This document shows positions 1 to 31,922 of a DNA stretch of 31,922 nucleotides, in pieces. The stretch is taken from positions 1 through 31,922 of the IMG/VR virus record IMGVR_UViG_3300042535_000009; one strand, 5' to 3'. Numbering within the stretch: the stretch's first letter is position 1; every line of letters begins with the position of its first letter. The translations under genes were made by a program, and so were the position numbers. This stretch comes from a virus. The notes beneath the pieces are model-generated. The model made no database searches, was not told the origin of the DNA, and saw only the letters and a program-made list of their open reading frames with translations.

Positions 1-354
1 GGCATCGGCATCGGCGGCGGCATAGGCGGCAGCACCGGCGGCGGCATAGGCATTTTCTTGAGTAGGATTTAAAATATATTTTTTCGCCGCTTCAATTGCC
101 AATCTCGGTCGTTTATCATCTGGATATTTTTTTTCAAATATATCAATAACTTGTTCCGCCGCGAATACTGCATATTTAATTAAATCAATCTTGTTTAATT
201 TTTCTGTTATATACCAATTTGCAAAAACAAAATTATCGCTTTTAATTATTTGGTCAATTAAATTTTTTATCGATTTATTTTTTTGATCTTTAAACCAGTC
301 AATACCCGGTTGACACGCATTCATCGATCTTAATTCTTTTAACGTAATTCTCAT
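1..354 (-). CDS. Imm-5-like putative immunity-family protein, C-terminus cut by window edge
   Basis: The first 118 residues are present and the reading frame is still open at base 1, so the C-terminus is missing. The body ends in FEKKYPDDKRPRLAIEAAKK (residues 73-92) and then passes into an Ala-rich tail with Tyr, Asp and Gly (from residue 101). From memory of the family, this layout matches phage and bacterial proteins labelled 'putative immunity protein' (Imm-5-like), which carry an AEQV..FEKKYPDD.RPRKAIEAA core and long AYAA tails. What they do in phages is not established. The start ATG shares ATGA with the stop of the upstream 52-residue gene. The tail DNA is GC-rich and repetitive, unlike the rest of the gene, and the contig ends inside it. 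An immunity role is only a family label. Confidence 0.7.
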   Translation of the reverse strand, partial: MRITLKELRSMNACQPGIDWFKDQKNKSIKNLIDQIIKSDNFVFANWYITEKLNKIDLIKYAVFAAEQVIDIFEKKYPDDKRPRLAIEAAKKYILNPTQENAYAAAGAAAYAAADADA

Positions 355-2978: not shown

Positions 2979-3170
2979 ATGAAGTATTTAATATTTTTTT
3001 GCGGAATGATATTTTCGCTATGCCTTGAAGCGTTATTTCAAGATATTTTAGGCGTTGATGGGTATTGCGACTTTGTACGATCTGTATGGGTTTCACCGCC
3101 ATATGGAACTGTTTTTATTATTTTATTAGCGACTGTGGTTTGTATTATTTTTTCAAAAATAAAAAGATAA
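2979..3170 (+). CDS. Small two-pass membrane protein (63 aa), last gene of the rightward operon
   Basis: There are two hydrophobic segments, residues 3-20 (YLIFFCGMIFSLCLEALF) and 42-59 (YGTVFIILLATVVCIIFS), joined by a polar loop, and a basic end (KIKR). AGAGGGGAAG lies before the ATG. The stop codon directly abuts the stop codon of the leftward 191-residue gene, so the two operons meet with no spacer and no terminator. Phage membrane proteins like this may be holin-like or exclusion proteins; there is no specific evidence. Confidence 0.55.
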   Translation: MKYLIFFCGMIFSLCLEALFQDILGVDGYCDFVRSVWVSPPYGTVFIILLATVVCIIFSKIKR

Positions 3171-3746
3171 CTACTCATCAACTGATAACCCACGTGATTT
3201 TTTGAATATATTAGTAAATTCTTTGATGAGAAATTCTTTTGTATTTTGATCACTATTCATCTCATCGTTAAAGTCTTGCCATTTAACGGAATAGTTTAAC
3301 CAGTTATCAGCGAGCCAGGTCGATTGAAAAGCCTTAATATTTTGCACTCTCATTTCGACACTTGTTTTTTTATCGTCATTTTGAATTACTTCCTTAATCC
3401 GGTCGTGGATGCGATACCAAAAAAGACTGATCATAGTATCAAATATTCGTACTTCGCGATTATGATGATCTACATCGCCTGTCGCGGATAATTGACGATA
3501 TAGAGTCTCAAAAGTATCTTTGAGTCTTACTTTTACCTCATCTAATACGCATTCTACGTATTGCATGGTCATAGGGAATTTTTTTTTCGGAAATAAATTT
3601 ATTGTCCATTTTCCAAAAACAATATTTAGTCCGTCGAATAGTTTGCTAATCACAACTAATACTATAATCGCAACAATGGGTAAAAGAATAATTTCAATAA
3701 TAATAAGTGGTATTTGTACGCCTAATATTGTCAAAACTACCTCCAT
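3171..3746 (-). CDS. Membrane-anchored hypothetical protein (191 aa)
   Basis: Residues 2-36 are strongly hydrophobic and may form one long or two short membrane segments. The rest is a soluble, charged, helical domain containing the motifs FWYRIHDRI and DNWLNYSVKW. No enzyme motif is seen. It closes the leftward lysis-region operon, and its N-terminus overlaps the upstream 101-residue membrane gene by ten bases. The position after holin and spanin-like genes suggests a membrane or lysis-related task, but it is not a recognised endolysin. Confidence 0.5.
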   Translation of the reverse strand: MEVVLTILGVQIPLIIIEIILLPIVAIIVLVVISKLFDGLNIVFGKWTINLFPKKKFPMTMQYVECVLDEVKVRLKDTFETLYRQLSATGDVDHHNREVRIFDTMISLFWYRIHDRIKEVIQNDDKKTSVEMRVQNIKAFQSTWLADNWLNYSVKWQDFNDEMNSDQNTKEFLIKEFTNIFKKSRGLSVDE

Positions 3747-4042
3747 ACCGATATTGTTAATGTGTTATAAATCGTTAGAACTATAAAAGTAAAACTAAAT
3801 GCCCATCGAAATATTTTTTTTAACGTCCATCGCTTATCTTCATTTTGTTTTAATTCTAACGCTTTCTTAACTTCGTCTTGAGCTTTTATTATGACTTTAT
3901 TTTGATCTAATACAATCATTACAAGATTTAATATTCTTTCAACATCTTTATCTTTTGGAATATTATTTATCATGTTGCATGTATATTCATTTGTTTGATT
4001 ACAAACTTCTTTAATTATTTCCGCTCTTTCCTCTTTTGTCAT
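3737..4042 (-). CDS. Helical protein with C-terminal membrane anchor (101 aa)
   Basis: The first 75 residues are charged and helical (MTKEERAEIIKEVCNQTNEY). Residues 80-96 (IFRWAFSFTFIVLTIYN) form one membrane segment, so it is a tail-anchored protein. AAGGACATGAAAA stands before the ATG. It overlaps the 42-residue gene before it and the 191-residue membrane gene after it. It sits in the lysis cassette and could be an antiholin or accessory membrane factor, which is inference from position. Confidence 0.5.
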   Translation of the reverse strand: MTKEERAEIIKEVCNQTNEYTCNMINNIPKDKDVERILNLVMIVLDQNKVIIKAQDEVKKALELKQNEDKRWTLKKIFRWAFSFTFIVLTIYNTLTISVWR

Positions 4043-4139
4043 TTTTCATGTCCTTATAGTAATTTTTGAAATATTTCCATATTTCATACGCATTATGATC
4101 TTTATTCCAATCAGGCTTATTATCTTTTACAACTTCCAT
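4011..4139 (-). CDS. Small charged hypothetical protein (42 aa)
   Basis: A 42-residue frame starting MEVVKDNKPDWNKDHNAYEI and ending in a basic stretch (KNDKRGKSGNN). It overlaps the end of the 150-residue signal-peptide protein by 13 bases and the start of the 101-residue gene by 32 bases. The ribosome site is weak. It tiles the space between two likely genes, but it could be an accidental frame. Confidence 0.35.
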   Translation of the reverse strand: MEVVKDNKPDWNKDHNAYEIWKYFKNYYKDMKNDKRGKSGNN

Positions 4140-4579
4140 ACAAATCCATACTTGTCATAATATCCATTGCATAATACCGCCAATACAATAATAACAATTA
4201 CACATCCAATCAATAATATCCCCGCAATGGGAAATAAAATCTTCAAAGATAATTTCATCAAATTATTCTGGATTGCCATACTTTTCAAGTCTTTCGATAA
4301 GTCGTTTATCGATGTCTTCAAGTCGCTTAATTCTATCTCGGCTTGCGTTAATGCTGTCTGTAAGTTGTTGATTGATTGTAATTGCCTCTTTAACAAATCG
4401 CTTTGCTTCATAAAATCCAGTTTCAATGCTTCGTAAATGTTCATTCGCGATTTTAACGTGTTGATTAAATATTGATACTCGCTTTTCGGTATAGAAATAG
4501 ACTCTGACTCCGCTTGCAATTGCGCCGATGATAAAACAAACAACTCCAATAATAATATAAATAACAATTTTCTTAACAT
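4127..4579 (-). CDS. Signal peptide / coiled coil / C-terminal TM protein, spanin-like (150 aa)
   Basis: An N-terminal signal peptide (residues 1-23, MLRKLLFILLLELFVLSS followed by AQLQA) has no lipobox Cys. A long amphipathic coiled-coil stretch (about 33-105, with LKRQLQSINNLQTALTQAEI) follows, then a C-terminal membrane segment (about 112-137). This is the layout of a u-spanin, except that u-spanins start with a lipoprotein signal. The ATG lies four bases after the start of an i-spanin-like gene in another frame, and the two share about 317 bases. Spanins join the inner and outer membranes to finish lysis. Both frames look protein-like. Role inferred. Confidence 0.55.
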   Translation of the reverse strand: MLRKLLFILLLELFVLSSAQLQAESESISIPKSEYQYLINTLKSRMNIYEALKLDFMKQSDLLKRQLQSINNLQTALTQAEIELSDLKTSINDLSKDLKSMAIQNNLMKLSLKILFPIAGILLIGCVIVIIVLAVLCNGYYDKYGFVWKL

Positions 4580-4583
4580 TCAT
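4263..4583 (-). CDS. i-spanin-like protein (Rz-type layout, 106 aa)
   Basis: An N-terminal signal-anchor (residues 5-30, IVIYIIIGVVCFIIGAIA) is followed by a charged periplasmic helix (about 33-100, including RDRIKRLEDIDKRLIERLE). This is the classic layout of an inner-membrane spanin such as lambda Rz, at the lower end of the usual length. Its ATG shares ATGA with the holin stop, and AAGGAAGT lies just upstream. It lies almost entirely inside the 150-residue gene in a different frame. In known pairs the embedded partner is an outer-membrane lipoprotein, but here the partner lacks a lipobox. Assigned by layout and neighbourhood, not by sequence similarity. Confidence 0.6.
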   Translation of the reverse strand: MNVKKIVIYIIIGVVCFIIGAIASGVRVYFYTEKRVSIFNQHVKIANEHLRSIETGFYEAKRFVKEAITINQQLTDSINASRDRIKRLEDIDKRLIERLEKYGNPE

Positions 4584-4912
4584 ATACTTCCTTGTTCATC
4601 TTGCTTATCTTTTGGTAATAGCAATTGAATTTTTTTCATAATTTCTTTTGACGCGACAGATATTGAAAAATTTATAAGTGAATTTATAACAATCCATTCA
4701 ATCGAAACATTGTTGAATAAAAAAGCAAATCCCACAGTAAATCCAATTCCGATTACTATAGCCGTAACAAGTGTATATATTCCTTTAATTTTAGGAAAAT
4801 AATTACAAATTATTTCAGTTATTATAAATACAAATATGCTCGCAAGTGGGTTAAATCCACGATTGCACAATTCATCATATATTTTAAAAATCGATGTGAT
4901 AATATCTATCAT
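4580..4912 (-). CDS. Phage holin (110 aa)
   Basis: A small membrane protein with hydrophobic segments at about residues 22-36 (ASIFVFIITEIICNY), 44-66 (IYTLVTAIVIGIGFTVGFAF) and 70-86, and a charged C-terminus (KKIQLLLPKDKQDEQ). Length and layout fit phage holins, which open the inner membrane at lysis. It sits directly before the spanin-like pair (ATGA overlap) and after the tail fibre gene, the usual late lysis position. No endolysin is next to it; the only candidate cell-wall enzyme seen is a C39-like protein far away at 29231. The exact holin family is not certain. Confidence 0.65.
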   Translation of the reverse strand: MIDIITSIFKIYDELCNRGFNPLASIFVFIITEIICNYFPKIKGIYTLVTAIVIGIGFTVGFAFLFNNVSIEWIVINSLINFSISVASKEIMKKIQLLLPKDKQDEQGSI

Positions 4913-5079
4913 TCTTTACCTGCCTTCATAATAACATATTCTTTGAGTTTTTTTGTAAATTGTTCTCGACAAAACTTTTTAACTTCCTGATCGAATAATT
5001 TATTTTTTATTGATTCATGATCGTTTTTAAAAGAAATTATTTTAATTGTTTCGTCTTCAAATATAAGTTTTATTTTCAT
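4909..5079 (-). CDS. Small charged hypothetical protein (56 aa)
   Basis: A 56-residue frame (MKIKLIFEDETIKIISFKND...) with a beta-type start and a basic helical end (VKKFCREQFTKKLKEYVI). It fills the gap between the fibre and holin genes exactly: it starts seven bases after the fibre stop and ends in an ATGA overlap with the holin. The ribosome site is weak, so translation probably depends on ribosomes arriving from the fibre gene. Function unknown; it might be a tail-tip chaperone or a lysis regulator by position. Confidence 0.5.
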   Translation of the reverse strand: MKIKLIFEDETIKIISFKNDHESIKNKLFDQEVKKFCREQFTKKLKEYVIMKAGKE

Positions 5080-5086
5080 AATGATT

Positions 5087-6439
5087 TTATAATGATATTG
5101 TATATCCTTTTGTTAATATTTTTACTGTTCCCGTTGATGCGGCTCGTGTCCTAACTCTTCCTGATGTATCGGTATTGATATACAATTCAGCATGACCAAC
5201 GCCAAATCCTATATTTGCAACAGATAATTGATATATGCCTGTAGCAGTTGCTGGAGCCAAGTCAGTTGTGTCAGGATCACTAACATAACATAATACATTG
5301 CCAGCACCTATTAAAATAGTAACTACTATGTTGGCTTTCACTTTTACACCTGTCGCAACTGATAACGTTCTTAGAATTGCGCTTGAATTATCAGCCGTAT
5401 CGCTTATATCCTGAATGGGTGTAAGATAATTGACTTCGAGACTATTACCGCCCCTGATCCATTGCGACAAAATAAAGTTAGAACTGCTATTTGTTCTACC
5501 TACTCCAATTTTTCTATAATAAGTCCACCCCGCTGGACGATTTGCCGCTATGATAGAGGTATCAAATCCGTAATCTATAGAACCGTCAGAGTCTTCGCGG
5601 ATGACAAACATGTAATATACTGTATTTGCCGCAACGCTTCCAGAAAACAACCCGCCCGCATCGTCTCCAGCCGCCCATGAAGCATCAATTTGTTTTGTTA
5701 ATGCTGATCCTGTTAGTATTATTGCATTCGTTGAGTCTGTGCATGATCCTGACCCAAATAATATATCGTGGTCTGTATCGGTATCATGTGATATTGCAAA
5801 GCCGTTGATGACTAATAGCGGATAGGTTGCAAGTGCTGAAGGTGCCGCCCATTGAGTTTTTCCATTACCAAGAGTCTGTAGCATATATCCTGACGTTCCG
5901 GCATCATACGGCATAATAGCCTTGTATAATATCAACGCTGAAACTGTTGAACTTGCTACCGTCCATGTGCAAAGACATCTATCAGCATTATAATACATAC
6001 CGCCTTTGAGATACGAAGCGGTAGGAGTTACTGTTTTTGATATATAATATTCACCTTTTCCGATAGTGGTAGCATTTGTATCAAGACAACCCCGACAATA
6101 TAGATACCATGTGCCATCGGATATACTTGGAAAATCAGTAGCCCCGGCATACGTGAAAGTTCGGTCTGACGGCTCAAATATAGCCTCACTTAATAGTGTT
6201 GTCGGAGTATTTCCGGCGATGTACTCATTATTTCCGGTAGCATAATCAGCCGAGATGGTGTAAGTCGCGTCAGTAGCGTATACCATGAAGCGGGTATTTG
6301 CCTTGACAGTCGGGGGATTATTACCGTTTGTTACTATCTCAAAATATTCATGATCGCCGTTAAGCGCGTTAAAGAAGTTGTTTTGTGAATTAGCCCAGCA
6401 ATTGCGATCTGAACCTGCTTTGTGTAGTCTTGTACTCAT
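5087..6439 (-). CDS. Tail fibre / tail-tip structural protein (450 aa)
   Basis: The protein is rich in Thr, Ser, Gly, Ala and Tyr with few Lys, typical of beta-rich fibre proteins. It contains the phrase GYMLQTLGNGKTQWA (about 182-196), a pattern frequent in phage fibres, and beta-sandwich-like repeats afterwards. It is the last structural gene before the lysis cassette, the usual place for a receptor-binding fibre. The start is set by GGAGG in a hairpin directly upstream, so its translation may be controlled. No tail-spike enzyme motif, collagen repeat or chaperone domain is seen. Receptor binding is inferred. Confidence 0.7.
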   Translation of the reverse strand: MSTRLHKAGSDRNCWANSQNNFFNALNGDHEYFEIVTNGNNPPTVKANTRFMVYATDATYTISADYATGNNEYIAGNTPTTLLSEAIFEPSDRTFTYAGATDFPSISDGTWYLYCRGCLDTNATTIGKGEYYISKTVTPTASYLKGGMYYNADRCLCTWTVASSTVSALILYKAIMPYDAGTSGYMLQTLGNGKTQWAAPSALATYPLLVINGFAISHDTDTDHDILFGSGSCTDSTNAIILTGSALTKQIDASWAAGDDAGGLFSGSVAANTVYYMFVIREDSDGSIDYGFDTSIIAANRPAGWTYYRKIGVGRTNSSSNFILSQWIRGGNSLEVNYLTPIQDISDTADNSSAILRTLSVATGVKVKANIVVTILIGAGNVLCYVSDPDTTDLAPATATGIYQLSVANIGFGVGHAELYINTDTSGRVRTRAASTGTVKILTKGYTISL

Positions 6440-6479: not shown

Positions 6480-6761
6480 TTATTTAAATTCTGCCGATAT
6501 GCCGAATTCATTCAAATTAACAATAATATCAATATAATACAATTCAGTATCATGATTATGGTATTGGATATTTAATTTGTTACCTTCAAAAATAATAGTT
6601 TTATCTTCAAAAGCATTCAAAGTTATCCAATCGTCATTTACAATTATATTTTGCAATACATTTGTTTTATTGATAATTTTCAAGTCATGTTCATTTTTTA
6701 CTATCTGTGAACATGAAAATACTAATAAAATTGCTAAAATACTTAAAATAGTCTTAATCAT
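6480..6761 (-). CDS. Predicted lipoprotein, moron-like (93 aa)
   Basis: The N-terminus MIKTILSILAILLVFSC is a lipoprotein signal with Cys17 as the lipidated residue (VFSC lipobox). The mature part is about 76 residues and looks like a small beta domain (LNIQYHNHDTELYYIDIIV). The gene sits between two tail genes, has its own promoter directly upstream, an AGGAG ribosome site and a hairpin after the stop. This is the layout of a moron, a gene expressed on its own, often in a lysogen. Phage lipoproteins can block superinfection or shield a receptor, as known for T5 Llp; an outer-membrane spanin is a weaker alternative. Function inferred. Confidence 0.65.
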   Translation of the reverse strand: MIKTILSILAILLVFSCSQIVKNEHDLKIINKTNVLQNIIVNDDWITLNAFEDKTIIFEGNKLNIQYHNHDTELYYIDIIVNLNEFGISAEFK

Positions 6762-22818: not shown

Positions 22819-22955
22819 TTCTTCTTTTGCTCCATAAAGTTTTTTAATATATTTTTCTTCAAATCATAATAATGAGTAAAGCACAATGGATATTTCATAC
22901 CTAACATCTTGATAATATCAATAGCCTTTTTTTCACACAAAAAACAAGTTTTCAT
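22815..22955 (-). CDS. Small zinc-finger-like protein between terminase and Rossmann-like gene (46 aa)
   Basis: Cys4-x2-Cys7 (CFLC) and Cys25-x2-His28 (CFTH) are spaced for one zinc site. The rest is basic and helical (YYDLKKNILKNFMEQKKK). The ATG overlaps the terminase stop and the stop overlaps the next start, both as ATGA, so it is locked into the packaging operon. It may be a DNA-binding partner in packaging; not recognised in known phages. Confidence 0.6.
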   Translation of the reverse strand: MKTCFLCEKKAIDIIKMLGMKYPLCFTHYYDLKKNILKNFMEQKKK

Positions 22956-24241
22956 AACTTCATCCTTGTATTAATATTGACCGCCTTGACAAACATTCCA
23001 CCTTCGGATTTGTACAACTCGCGTAAAATCGAAGCAAGGCTATCCGGCGCATCAATCAATCCCCCGCCTTCCTGATAATATACAATTTGTTCTAAGTATT
23101 CCGGTTGACAATCATCTGCAAAAAACAAACGGGGCGACAACTTATGAATCCAATGTGTTATTTTATAATGTTTGTTCTCTTTTTCATTGATCGCCCTCGT
23201 CAATGGGAATCTTTTGTTTATTTCACCATGTGACAGTCCATGATCGCCATTCGCTTCACAGTATAGCATAATACAGTTGTATTGACTACATATATCTACA
23301 ATTTTTTGATATAGATTTGTAATGTTTTCACGCCATACGAAGCCCTTAATGGTTATAGTTTTATCAGGATTTTCTTCAAGCAATGTCAAAGCCGTTGTAC
23401 AGTCGCCAGAATAAGCAGGATCCAGATACGCACTACAAGTGAGTTTTTCATCCCATGCCTTGAACTTAGGCTCAATCAACTGATCGCTATCGGCTATATG
23501 CTGTAGTAGATAGTTTGCGGCGTATAGACTATTTCCGTTTGTTTTTCTTAATTCCGCTATGATTTCAGGCGTAAAATCTGGATCATCAACGCTTCCAATC
23601 GGGTATTTTCTCGGCTCCGGTAGTATTGTAAAAGCATCATCTCTATGCCAAGGTGTACCTGTTGCGATTATAGTTCCTCCGACGGTCTTAATATTTGATA
23701 ATTCCCTTATATAATTCTTTGTACTTTCTCTTTCTGCAGGCGAATATCGGTCTTTTTCAGTAACTATATCGTCTATACAAATCTTGTCAAAATGGGCACC
23801 GGTTATATTACCGCCTTTTCCATATGCCTCAATATTGAACTCTTTTGATATCCGGACCTTAGTCGGTAGGTTAATACGCTTTTGATTCCAGTCTGTCAAC
23901 TCAAAAGGGGTATTAAATACCTCGCTATAAATGTATTTCAACTTTTCAGATAGGTAATGTCTGGTAATTTCCTGTAATATACTTATTGCTCCAGTTTCAC
24001 TTTTACGTATAATTGCAATAAGTGTATCCGGAAAGTATAATAACCTCCATATCGTTCCAACTACTAATATCGACGTGGTTTTCTTGCTATTCCTATACGC
24101 CTGTAGAGTTACGTCCGTATCTGAAAGCCAGCATTTTTTAATCCAGTCATTATGATGTTTCATTAATTTATCATAGCCGAGTATATGCCCTAAGATAATA
24201 GGATTTTCCGCTATGTCATCAATAAGGACTTTGTTAATCAA
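22952..24241 (-). CDS. terL: Terminase large subunit (429 aa)
   Basis: The ATPase part has an unusual Walker A-like segment (AYRNSKKTT, about 48-56), Walker B ICIDD (154-158) and the coupling motif ATGTPW (193-198). The nuclease part shows AYLDPAYSGD (271-280, Asp274), YCEANGD (327-333, Glu329) and DAPDS (397-401), the RNase-H-like metal residues. It pumps DNA into the head through the portal and cuts it. Length is typical of compact TerL. It follows the small-subunit candidate with a four-base overlap. The Walker A lacks the usual Gly before Lys-Thr. Confidence 0.92.
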   Translation of the reverse strand: MINKVLIDDIAENPIILGHILGYDKLMKHHNDWIKKCWLSDTDVTLQAYRNSKKTTSILVVGTIWRLLYFPDTLIAIIRKSETGAISILQEITRHYLSEKLKYIYSEVFNTPFELTDWNQKRINLPTKVRISKEFNIEAYGKGGNITGAHFDKICIDDIVTEKDRYSPAERESTKNYIRELSNIKTVGGTIIATGTPWHRDDAFTILPEPRKYPIGSVDDPDFTPEIIAELRKTNGNSLYAANYLLQHIADSDQLIEPKFKAWDEKLTCSAYLDPAYSGDCTTALTLLEENPDKTITIKGFVWRENITNLYQKIVDICSQYNCIMLYCEANGDHGLSHGEINKRFPLTRAINEKENKHYKITHWIHKLSPRLFFADDCQPEYLEQIVYYQEGGGLIDAPDSLASILRELYKSEGGMFVKAVNINTRMKL

Positions 24242-28353: not shown

Positions 28354-28365
28354 AGTTAGTCCTTT

Positions 28366-28602
28366 TTAGTTGCCGTTGCCGTTGCTGTAGCCGTAGCCGT
28401 AGCCGTAGCCGTTGCCGTTGCCGTAGCCGGAGCCGTTGCCGTTGCCGGAGCCGTTGCCGTAGCCGGAGCCGTTGCCGTAGCCGTCGCCGTAGCCGGAGCC
28501 GTCGCCGTAGCCGTTGCCGTAGCCGTAGCCGTTGCCGTCGCCGGAGCCGTCGCCGTAGCCAACTATACTATTGGCATCTTCGTTTATAAAGCGTTTTTCC
28601 AT
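28366..28602 (-). CDS. Gly-X repeat protein (78 aa)
   Basis: After a short non-repeat start (MEKRFINEDANSIV) the whole protein consists of 32 dipeptides Gly-X, with X = Tyr, Asp, Ser or Asn (one Gly is replaced by Ser). GAGGAATCGGC precedes the ATG, so this frame and not its neighbour is the translated one. Such (GY/GD/GS)n proteins occur in various phages without known function; the chain is probably disordered or forms a flexible Gly/Tyr-rich gel-like part. It overlaps the upstream gene by 19 bases. The composition is unlike any neighbour. Confidence 0.65.
   Translation of the reverse strand: MEKRFINEDANSIVGYGDGSGDGNGYGYGNGYGDGSGYGDGYGNGSGYGNGSGNGNGSGYGNGNGYGYGYGYSNGNGN
28369..28560 (-). 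repeat. 192-base degenerate hexanucleotide tract (GGC-NNC)n
   Basis: The minus strand reads GGC TAC / GGC GAC / GGC TCC / GGC AAC in variable order for 32 units, with almost only GNC or TNC codons. It is strongly GC-rich in an AT-rich region. The unit is six bases, so slippage would change length without changing frame. Long runs of all six frames stay open because of the pattern. Confidence 0.85.
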
Positions 28603-29230: not shown

Positions 29231-29677
29231 CTAACTCTTGATAATTCGAGTTATGGTTAAAATATCTTGTCTATTATATAATAACTTGTCGCCAAAATCA
29301 GTATCAAATATTTCAAACTTATTATTTTTCATGCCAATAAAGTTACAATAATGAGCACCTTTGTAAATTCTATGCTTGATAGATGTTATATAAATACCGT
29401 TTATATCGCTAATATCTTTGACTGGTATATGATTAAATCCTAAATGCTTTTCCGCTACACTCCATACGATATAAGACTCTGTCATATCCTTAACATAATT
29501 TCCGGTAAAAAATTGATAGCCTTTGTTTTTTCGTAAATAATCATTAAGTTCTTTCGGTGTTATATCAAATATATTTGCTATTGCCGTGACTAAGCATCCG
29601 TAGTCCTTCATGTGATCAGTCGTCAATCCCATATCATCAAATGCCCATCGTTTATCGCATTGAACATTATAAATCAT
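29231..29677 (-). CDS. C39-like cysteine peptidase-family protein (148 aa)
   Basis: The papain-like C39 pattern is present: YGCLVTAIANI (26-36) with Cys28, GAHYCNFIG (107-115) with His109, and IFDTDFG (123-129) with an Asp. The N-terminus NVQCDKRWAFDDMG also fits. I start it at the ATG with AAGGGG seven bases upstream; a TTG two codons earlier is possible. C39-like domains cut Gly-type peptide bonds or, in phages, may act on cell walls. It is far from the holin, so endolysin is only one option; processing of a host or phage protein is another. Confidence 0.68.
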   Translation of the reverse strand: MIYNVQCDKRWAFDDMGLTTDHMKDYGCLVTAIANIFDITPKELNDYLRKNKGYQFFTGNYVKDMTESYIVWSVAEKHLGFNHIPVKDISDINGIYITSIKHRIYKGAHYCNFIGMKNNKFEIFDTDFGDKLLYNRQDILTITRIIKS

Positions 29678-29852
29678 TGTCAACCCCTTTATAATTTTCT
29701 TTGATAGTTTTTTTAATGCTTTTCATACCAGATATCAACCCTCGCAAAATATTTAATTTTTCTAAATCCTCGTAGTCATGGCATAATAAATTATCAATAT
29801 CGGATTGAAGACAAATTAAATATTCTCTAAATATTTCATTGTTAGTCGTCAT
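29667..29852 (-). CDS. Small helical protein, first gene of the early/accessory operon (61 aa)
   Basis: A helical, charged protein, MTTNNEIFREYLICLQSDID..., with heptad-like Leu/Ile spacing (LEKLNILRGLISGMKSIKKT). AAGGATACC lies before the ATG. It stands directly behind a near-perfect promoter with a leader of about ten bases, so it is expected to be made early and in quantity. The end overlaps the C39-like gene. No family recognised. Confidence 0.6.
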   Translation of the reverse strand: MTTNNEIFREYLICLQSDIDNLLCHDYEDLEKLNILRGLISGMKSIKKTIKENYKGVDNDL

Positions 29853-29907: not shown

Positions 29908-30432
29908 CTATATTTCTTCTTGTATTTCCCATGAATCAGAAAATTCTTTATCTTTAAATAAATCTGCTAATCCGGTAATTTGTTTTAGTCGTAATAATTC
30001 ATCTTTATCCATTCCAATATGTCTCATTATCCATCCTTCAGACATTCCCGCTTGAGTTAATTCCATAACAATATTTGACATAAGTTCAATATTATGACTT
30101 CCCCTTGCCCTATTATGTCTAATCGTAGATGCCATTCTATTATCGATATCTTTATCAATAACAACTACAGGTAACATTCCTTTCTCACGTTCAAATATTC
30201 TTTGACTGGTTTTTAATACTGTATATCTATGATAGCCGTCTACAATTTCGTACTTATCTTCATTTTTAAGATAATAGCATACGCATGGCATTGTATAGCC
30301 GTCTTCCCATATAGATATTTCAAGTAACTTCATTTCTGGGGGAGCAACAGAATTTGGGTTATAACTATTTGCTTGAATCTTTTCAATTGGTACCGATAAA
30401 ACATTGTAAACTGGAGATTTAAATTCGCTCAT
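29908..30432 (-). CDS. ParB/Srx-like nuclease-fold protein, IbrB-like (174 aa)
   Basis: The ParB/sulfiredoxin N-domain is visible: VPIEKIQANSYNPNSVAPPE (14-33), VDGYHRY (64-70), VVVIDKD and RHNRARG (105-111). A helical part follows (GWIMRHIGMDKDELLRLKQI), as in ParB. Phage and bacterial proteins of this kind pair with PAPS-reductase/DUF3440 proteins as IbrB with IbrA; in E. coli ibrAB raise expression of eib genes. VDGYHRY is the part that in such proteins may bind nucleotide. It overlaps the methyltransferase stop by ATGA and ends the coupled island. The exact reaction is unknown. Confidence 0.8.
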   Translation of the reverse strand: MSEFKSPVYNVLSVPIEKIQANSYNPNSVAPPEMKLLEISIWEDGYTMPCVCYYLKNEDKYEIVDGYHRYTVLKTSQRIFEREKGMLPVVVIDKDIDNRMASTIRHNRARGSHNIELMSNIVMELTQAGMSEGWIMRHIGMDKDELLRLKQITGLADLFKDKEFSDSWEIQEEI

Positions 30433-30992: not shown

Positions 30993-31132
30993 TATATTTT
31001 CCTTCCTTGTTTAATATAATTATAATATATTTCACAATTTTTGCAAGTGTTTTTTTTAATACACTTTTTATTTATTATCTTACAAATATTTTCATCTTTA
31101 ATATATATGCTTGTATTTATATAATTTTTCAT
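30992..31132 (-). CDS. Cys-rich 46-residue protein in the island
   Basis: MKNYINTSIYIKDENICKII... holds four Cys at 17, 24, 30 and 33 (C-x6-C-x5-C-x2-C), likely a metal site (zinc or an iron-sulphur cluster), plus many Lys and Tyr. The ATG overlaps the DUF3440 stop (ATGA) and the stop overlaps the methyltransferase start (TAATG), so it is coupled on both sides. The AGGAAGGAAAA ribosome site of the methyltransferase lies inside its end. No known family. It may be a partner of the PAPS-reductase-like enzyme. Confidence 0.6.
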   Translation of the reverse strand: MKNYINTSIYIKDENICKIINKKCIKKNTCKNCEIYYNYIKQGRKI

Positions 31133-31922
31133 TTATCACTCTTTTTTAATTTTTGTAAATTGCGATATTTTTCTAATCCTTTTAACTTTAATATATTTTG
31201 ATCTTTTGTTCTGGCACAACTTAAATAAGTTAAAGTAAAATCATTTTTCATAATGGTAATACACACGGCTTTCCAAGAGGGGCATATTCTAAAATTAGGT
31301 ATTTTAGTATCATCTGGTATACCCGATTTAATTTTTATTATTTCATAAATATCTGGCTTTGTACATAATTTAGATATTGCTTTTGTGTTTTCTATTTCTA
31401 TTCCTTCTGCGATCATTTGCTTTATTACTCTCGGATTTCTACCATACCCTTTTTCTAACCATGTTTTTTGATATCTATCTAAATGATATAATAGTTTTTT
31501 TTTAGTATTTTCAGGTAATGTGCTAATAAGAAAATAAGCATATTCCTTCCATGTAAAATGATCTGGTTTAGTTATTTTTTTCCATCCCATAGCCGATGTT
31601 CCACCATATATACCTCCAAAATTACAGCCATTTACTCTACCTACCATTTTACCCCAACTATGTGGATCTATTATTTTATATAATTTTAAATCGTTTTGAC
31701 CACATTGATGAAACGGACTCGCAACTCTCATTTGATCTATTGTTAATCCCGCCTGATAATATAAATCATATATTTTATTATAATCAAAATTATACTTATA
31801 ATTTACTATCCATATATCTTGAGCTTTCCAGTCATAAATAGGATAAAAATTGCAAGTTAAATTATCAATAACTTTACTATATTTTAATTCTTTGTGCATA
31901 TATTTTCTATGCTGACTTGTAA
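31129..31922 (-). CDS. PAPS-reductase-family protein with DUF3440, IbrA-like, N-terminus cut by window edge
   Basis: The C-terminal DUF3440 part is easily seen: FYPIYDWKAQDIW, then AGLTIDQMRVASPFHQCGQN, DPHSWGKMVGRVNGCNFGGI and YGGTSAMGWKKI. The frame remains open to the window end above the first ATG, so the N-terminal PAPS-reductase ATP pyrophosphatase half with its SGGKDS-type loop must lie outside. Family members (IbrA, distantly DndC) use ATP to activate a substrate, possibly for sulphur transfer. It is the first gene of a coupled four-gene unit with a ParB-like partner. About 264 residues are visible of a usual length near 400. Confidence 0.85.
   Translation of the reverse strand, partial: TSQHRKYMHKELKYSKVIDNLTCNFYPIYDWKAQDIWIVNYKYNFDYNKIYDLYYQAGLTIDQMRVASPFHQCGQNDLKLYKIIDPHSWGKMVGRVNGCNFGGIYGGTSAMGWKKITKPDHFTWKEYAYFLISTLPENTKKKLLYHLDRYQKTWLEKGYGRNPRVIKQMIAEGIEIENTKAISKLCTKPDIYEIIKIKSGIPDDTKIPNFRICPSWKAVCITIMKNDFTLTYLSCARTKDQNILKLKGLEKYRNLQKLKKSDK

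Follow-up and report, generated by a model that had tools for sequence, protein, structure and literature searches.

A probable overprinted pair of membrane coiled-coil genes with starts four bases apart at the stop of a holin-like gene in an uncultured virus

Analysis of the uncultured virus record IMGVR_UViG_3300042535_000009 (31,922 bases, the whole of which was analysed and is referred to below as the window) revealed two minus-strand open reading frames, B (106 aa, 4263-4583) and A (150 aa, 4127-4579; in the +1 frame with respect to B), which begin four bases apart within a single ATGAATG sequence (4577-4583) and are very probably both genuine genes forming an overprinted pair. Near-common starts of two phage membrane genes are a new arrangement of overlapping membrane genes, and in a search of the open literature none of the listed titles and abstracts described spanin genes, or another pair of phage membrane genes, whose starts lie in different frames within a few bases of each other, which is weak evidence of absence. 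The position and distinct frames of the two starts are as an earlier note on this DNA had described them, and its figure of about 317 shared bases is exact (4263-4579); this segment is open in two frames, with the third one packed with stops, and A extends a further 136 bases past the end of B (4127-4262). The best explanation of the locus, which we put forward tentatively, is that two envelope coiled-coil proteins are encoded by overprinted genes, coupled to a holin-like gene, and act in an i-spanin-like manner at lysis. Judged from the sequence, a lysis role of either kind appears somewhat probable for A and B, and a spanin-like role in particular is possible rather than probable.

In minus-strand order, B is preceded by a 56-aa gene (4909-5079) and by the gene of a holin-like small membrane protein (4580-4912, 110 aa; no family match above cut-off), with ATGA at each junction. 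The ATGAATG sequence combines the start of B, the TGA stop of the holin-like gene (4580-4582) and the start of A, whose ATG immediately follows this TGA in the same frame as the holin-like gene. The presence of the stop within this sequence suggests that restart at either ATG is coupled to termination. Ribosomes that complete the holin-like gene, aided by a single Shine-Dalgarno-like site (CAAGGAAGT, 4586-4594, minus strand; aligned spacing 2 for B, 6 for A), would restart at B via the ATGA overlap or, alternatively, at A, where TGA is directly followed by ATG, so that both proteins would be made together with the holin-like protein. In the phage's other genes whose Shine-Dalgarno sites have 6 or more matches, the spacing spans 2-10, which covers both A and B. 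A possible mRNA hairpin at the two starts was rejected (no unusual RNA structure, z -0.86), as was a stop-codon reassignment fusing the holin-like gene to A, given that 15 of the 38 listed genes end in TGA. Inspection by eye of the region near the B stop found no obvious slippery site for a frameshift from B into the tail of A.

B is the ordinary frame of the pair, since its codon-position GC content (.46/.29/.26) matches that of phage genes (.42/.35/.28) and its codon log-odds (0.089) lie among those of 36 other genes (0.041 to 0.29), whereas the values for A are unlike them (.30/.26/.47 in the shared part; log-odds -0.067 in the shared part and 0.000 in the tail). The openness of the A frame over B is well supported by the sequence as exceeding chance. 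Given the B protein and phage codon usage, 12.5 A-frame stops are expected and none is observed (exact P 3.2e-8; no open A frame in 200,000 resampled sequences), and three other training sets yielded P values of 5e-9 to 1.2e-7. The Ile, Val and Leu codons of B that are able to make A-frame stops number 3 vs. 15.7 expected (z -4.63), the strongest shortfall among 37 genes (next lowest z -2.52), and ATA is used for one of 17 isoleucines (8.0 expected). As a control, each of 107 segments of 105 codons from 36 other genes contained at least two +1-frame stops, and applying the average density of +1-frame stops in the other genes gives P 2.5e-4 for 105 open codons. The probability rises to 0.0048 when B's own codons are permuted and to 0.017 with B's own usage plus pseudocounts, so that part of the A-frame signal depends on attributing B's odd codon mix to A. 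Taken alone, these weaker nulls would be unconvincing, because the reader who picked out the stretch had looked over much sequence; it is the phage-usage figures that convince. Reciprocally, 9.6 B-frame stops are expected given A and none is observed (P 2e-6). Both frames, as overprinting demands, are thus constrained within this single sequence, and we infer that both are translated.

The hydropathy profiles and predicted helices of the two products agree with the layouts that the earlier note had assigned to them. B has a single N-terminal hydrophobic segment (residues 6-24, mean hydropathy 2.87), predicted to be a signal-anchor transmembrane segment (TM) and followed by a predicted helical coil of about 80 residues (one long helix over residues 2-103, pLDDT 92.8), which is a type II arrangement. 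A has a hydrophobic N-terminus (1-19) with a signal-peptidase I site judged plausible by eye, a coil, and a C-terminal TM (residues 118-136, mean hydropathy 3.38) with a short tail after it, in the manner of a type I protein (long helices 2-27 and 32-144, pLDDT 86.3). Both models were obtained by AlphaFold without alignment, and they support helicity, not partners. The C-terminal TM lies in the part of A outside B (4127-4262) and is encoded only by A's frame; a stretch of comparable hydropathy occurred in 0.025% of random sequences matched for dinucleotide composition, and such a TM together with an open frame in none of 20,000.

Comparing the features of each protein with what the other frame would impose on it provides an indication of the order in which the two genes arose. 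B is more hydrophobic at its N-terminus (P 0.009) and stronger in helical periodicity (0 of 1,500) than A would force, whereas the N-terminal hydrophobicity of A is unremarkable when B is re-encoded with A kept open (P 0.12) and is thus largely a by-product of B's TM; as independent evidence it was rejected. A's heptad pattern does exceed these re-encodings (P 0.006, the best of nine features tested and about 0.05 after correction). For these reasons B looks like the older gene, with A overprinted later. B would have been an ordinary operon gene over which A arose in the +1 frame, an easy step because a one-base shift of a TM-coding stretch tends to yield another hydrophobic stretch, and A would then have gained a genuine C-terminal TM past B's end. 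Small membrane toxins are reported to retain activity when frame-shifted (PMC7192591).

The rarity of such a layout was estimated in fetched loci, most of them retrieved for terminase or capsid similarity and including cellular flanks, which makes the figures other than a census. In 3.59 Mb of these loci, 52 dual-start ATG pairs were found (same strand, at least 100 aa, starts at most 10 bases apart, different frames), just one of them within the 0.96 Mb of AT-rich DNA, and none of the 52 had two hydrophobic N-termini. With looser limits (80 aa, 30 bases), 3.96 Mb from 275 loci, of which some overlap, held 381 pairs, again with both N-termini hydrophobic in none.

The searches found no relative of A or B. 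No relatives came from scanning viral contigs one protein at a time (A, B, the holin-like protein, the capsid and two tail proteins), from a scan of genome contigs with one tail protein or from a tblastn search of 50,697 phage records with the first three of these as queries; the one blastn match to 3100-5100 was short and looked like chance. When 40 window proteins were compared with the fetched loci by tblastn, no lysis-region protein matched at E 0.01. A match of B (E 0.007) within a 1205-residue open frame, obtained against 48 virus records, was judged coil noise and set aside. Fold searches of A and B in viral models yielded nothing significant, a PDB sequence search of A gave coil-like matches only (E 0.09 or worse), PHROGs matches of A and B had E values of 0.024 or worse, and all matches of A and B in Pfam and NCBIfam fell below curated cut-offs. 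The TIGR04211 SH3-domain-and-anchor family weakly resembles A residues 23-132 (coil plus C-terminal TM; E 9e-4, 18.9 bits vs. a cut-off of 65), the match beginning at profile position 73 of 198 with the N-terminal part of the profile unmatched.

For the virus as a whole, profile scans detected distant kin only, with identities of up to 44% for the terminase and up to 32% for the capsid. The terminase (22952-24241) is nearest to a Leptospirales metagenome-assembled genome (the 44% match), and its module is unlinked to the rest, the capsid matches lying elsewhere; no capsid match was found in the Leptospirales genome. Strong mosaicism is evident: the capsid, portal and tail, either Mu-like or orphan, show no linkage to the Leptospirales-like terminase. 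The protein at 29908-30432 is up to 52% identical to proteins of terminase-related viral contigs, and the loci to which the terminase led include matches to a DUF3440 protein (31129-31899). Elsewhere in the window, 28356-28602 holds a GCCGTA hexanucleotide array (31.5 copies, 28372-28560) that is open in two minus-strand frames, encoding a Gly/Tyr/Asn/Asp-rich product of 78 aa and an Ala/Thr-rich one of 68 aa, and the left end of the window (1-60) carries a CGGCATAGGCGG repeat similar to this array.

Embedded or overlapped two-component spanins, namely lambda Rz/Rz1 and P2 LysB/LysC, resemble A and B in comprising two small envelope proteins in overlapping frames beside a holin gene. In the excerpted text of PMC6139136, a survey of 677 genomes, 528 two-component spanins and 58 u-spanins are reported and 91 genomes are left without either; two-component pairs are embedded, overlapped or separated, a lipobox is a defining feature of o- and u-spanins, and at least one cysteine is present in 507 of the 528 known pairs. 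A similar classification (separated, embedded, overlapping, unimolecular) is given in the excerpted PMC12596118. B, a putative spanin component at most, shares the i-spanin layout, with an N-terminal TM, a putative periplasmic domain and type II topology, a layout that is not spanin-specific. The +1 frame of A is also common for the second gene of two-component pairs (PMC6139136). Unlike embedded pairs, about 70% of which have the second start at 0.4-0.5 of the first gene according to the same excerpts, A begins four bases after B, at about 0.01 of its length. Further differences from two-component spanins are that A is no lipoprotein and has a C-terminal TM, and that neither protein has a periplasmic cysteine, all cysteines of A and B being in or at the edge of TM segments.

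The likening of A to a u-spanin, made in the earlier note, had to be abandoned: a lipobox is absent, and no cysteine precedes residue 100 of A. A does resemble the unimolecular spanin T1 gp11 in having an N-terminal export signal and a C-terminal TM, and it shares the lack of a periplasmic cysteine with all 58 u-spanins catalogued in PMC6139136 as excerpted. However, T1 gp11 is described there as mainly beta, whereas A is predicted to be helical, and A differs from u-spanins in its missing lipobox and in overlapping another gene. A six-frame lipobox scan placed no convincing lipoprotein within 4127-4583; the only pattern match there, LIGC following an internal start in A's frame, was discarded as a lipobox, as it sits within a long hydrophobic stretch. 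The proposal of a new spanin arrangement stands as to the near-common starts of a type II and a type I protein, which fall outside the three two-component architectures described in the excerpts of PMC6139136, and is not supported as to the spanin membership of A. A similar gene layout is that of influenza B NB/NA, two membrane proteins in different frames with starts about four nucleotides apart (PMC10814056, excerpted); this is a comparison of layout only, since influenza B is a eukaryotic RNA virus with scanning ribosomes and no homology to A/B.

The placing of the pair in a lysis cassette depends on one holin-like neighbour and other small membrane proteins; no endolysin was identified nearby. 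Every tested neighbour from 3171 to 4912 has a predicted TM. On the minus strand these include the products of 3737-4042 (101 aa, hydrophobic segment at the C-terminus) and 3171-3746 (191 aa, N-terminal TM and a soluble domain; no family match above cut-off). A 42-aa ORF (4011-4139) begins within the end of A and overlaps the start of the gene at 3737-4042. On the plus strand, 2979-3170 encodes a 63-aa protein with two hydrophobic segments, its end abutting the convergent 3171-3746 gene. The family search for an endolysin covered a part of the window's ORFs and found none among them. At 29231-29683, a 150-aa TTG-start protein has a Cys/His/Asp spacing reminiscent, by eye, of papain-like peptidases; it has neither a family match above cut-off nor a PDB sequence match and is a possible endolysin candidate. 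In transposable prophages of Leptospira, predicted holins and spanins lie close to an M23 peptidase (excerpted text of PMC8705779); no peptidase of this kind was found among the window proteins scanned. The lipobox scan revealed no o-spanin in or near the B gene; the nearest candidate, and the only good lipoprotein candidate on the minus strand, is a 93-aa protein with a lipobox-like VFSC (6480-6761) located between tail genes about 1.9 kb from the pair, which might possibly be a separate o-spanin.

In the preferred mechanism, B would be held in the inner membrane at its N-terminal end and A at its C-terminal end, with coils of similar length that both point outward but run oppositely to each other. 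At lysis, these two inner-membrane coiled coils would work as a pair in the manner of an i-spanin, perhaps making contact with the outer membrane through a separate lipoprotein such as that at 6480-6761. An i-spanin-like pair with a separate outer-membrane partner is favoured because of the layout of B, the type I layout of A (a type I inner-membrane protein with a C-terminal TM being conceivable as an i-spanin according to section 15 of PMC6139136, as excerpted) and the presence of this lipoprotein candidate. It weighs against any spanin-like reading, which would need a diderm host, that the host is perhaps not diderm.

The main rival to an i-spanin-like pair is holin control, in which A and/or B would regulate the holin-like protein in an antiholin-like manner or help form the membrane lesion, the near-equal starts at the holin gene's stop setting the A/B:holin ratio. 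This rather unlikely alternative draws on the location of both starts within four bases of that stop, on the lack of an outer-membrane anchor in either protein and on the predicted TMs throughout 3171 to 4912; however, coils of about 80 residues are more than an antiholin would seem to need, and A and B show no similarity to a known antiholin. We also consider unlikely a different envelope function, such as superinfection exclusion or remodelling of the virion or host envelope, in a neighbourhood that is not a lysis cassette: A and B are orphan proteins, and the partial family search of the window's ORFs found no endolysin, but the pair follows tail genes and is co-oriented with the holin-like gene and other small membrane proteins. 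A bolder variant, in which one stretch of DNA would specify both subunits of a new lipoprotein-free lysis complex, inner-membrane coiled coils held at opposite ends and lying antiparallel, in a fixed ratio to the holin, appears distinctly doubtful; the coils would be matched in length because they are encoded by the same DNA, and a single terminating ribosome would pick between two restart codons four bases apart.

Less probable still are explanations that deny the pair itself. It is very unlikely that only B is translated, with the tail of A being a separate 43-aa single-TM gene read from an internal ATG in A's frame (4127-4255, minus strand) and the first ~108 codons of A open by chance. The location of this ATG just past the B stop is compatible with such a view, as is the fit of B, and not of A, to the phage codon pattern, but position 4255 has no Shine-Dalgarno site, the chance-openness probabilities given above are low under phage usage (3.2e-8), permutation (0.0048) and own usage with pseudocounts (0.017), and it would be left unexplained why the open frame begins exactly with an ATG. 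An assembly indel splitting one gene, whose true product would be the head of B fused to the tail of A, is highly improbable: the record is a single uncultured contig with no second copy for comparison, but a one-base slip near the junction would account neither for a frame A that is open across all of B, with the risk codons depleted, nor for the ATGAATG start.

Overlaps between lysis genes are long familiar, but in known spanin overlaps the second start is mostly well inside the first gene and a lipoprotein is needed. If the interpretation of A and B as an overprinted i-spanin-like pair is true, they show how cheaply one membrane protein can be overprinted on another, and they add a type I inner-membrane candidate of the kind proposed, in the excerpted text of PMC6139136, for phages in which no spanin has been recognised. 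A pair of this sort would escape gene callers that reject overlaps.
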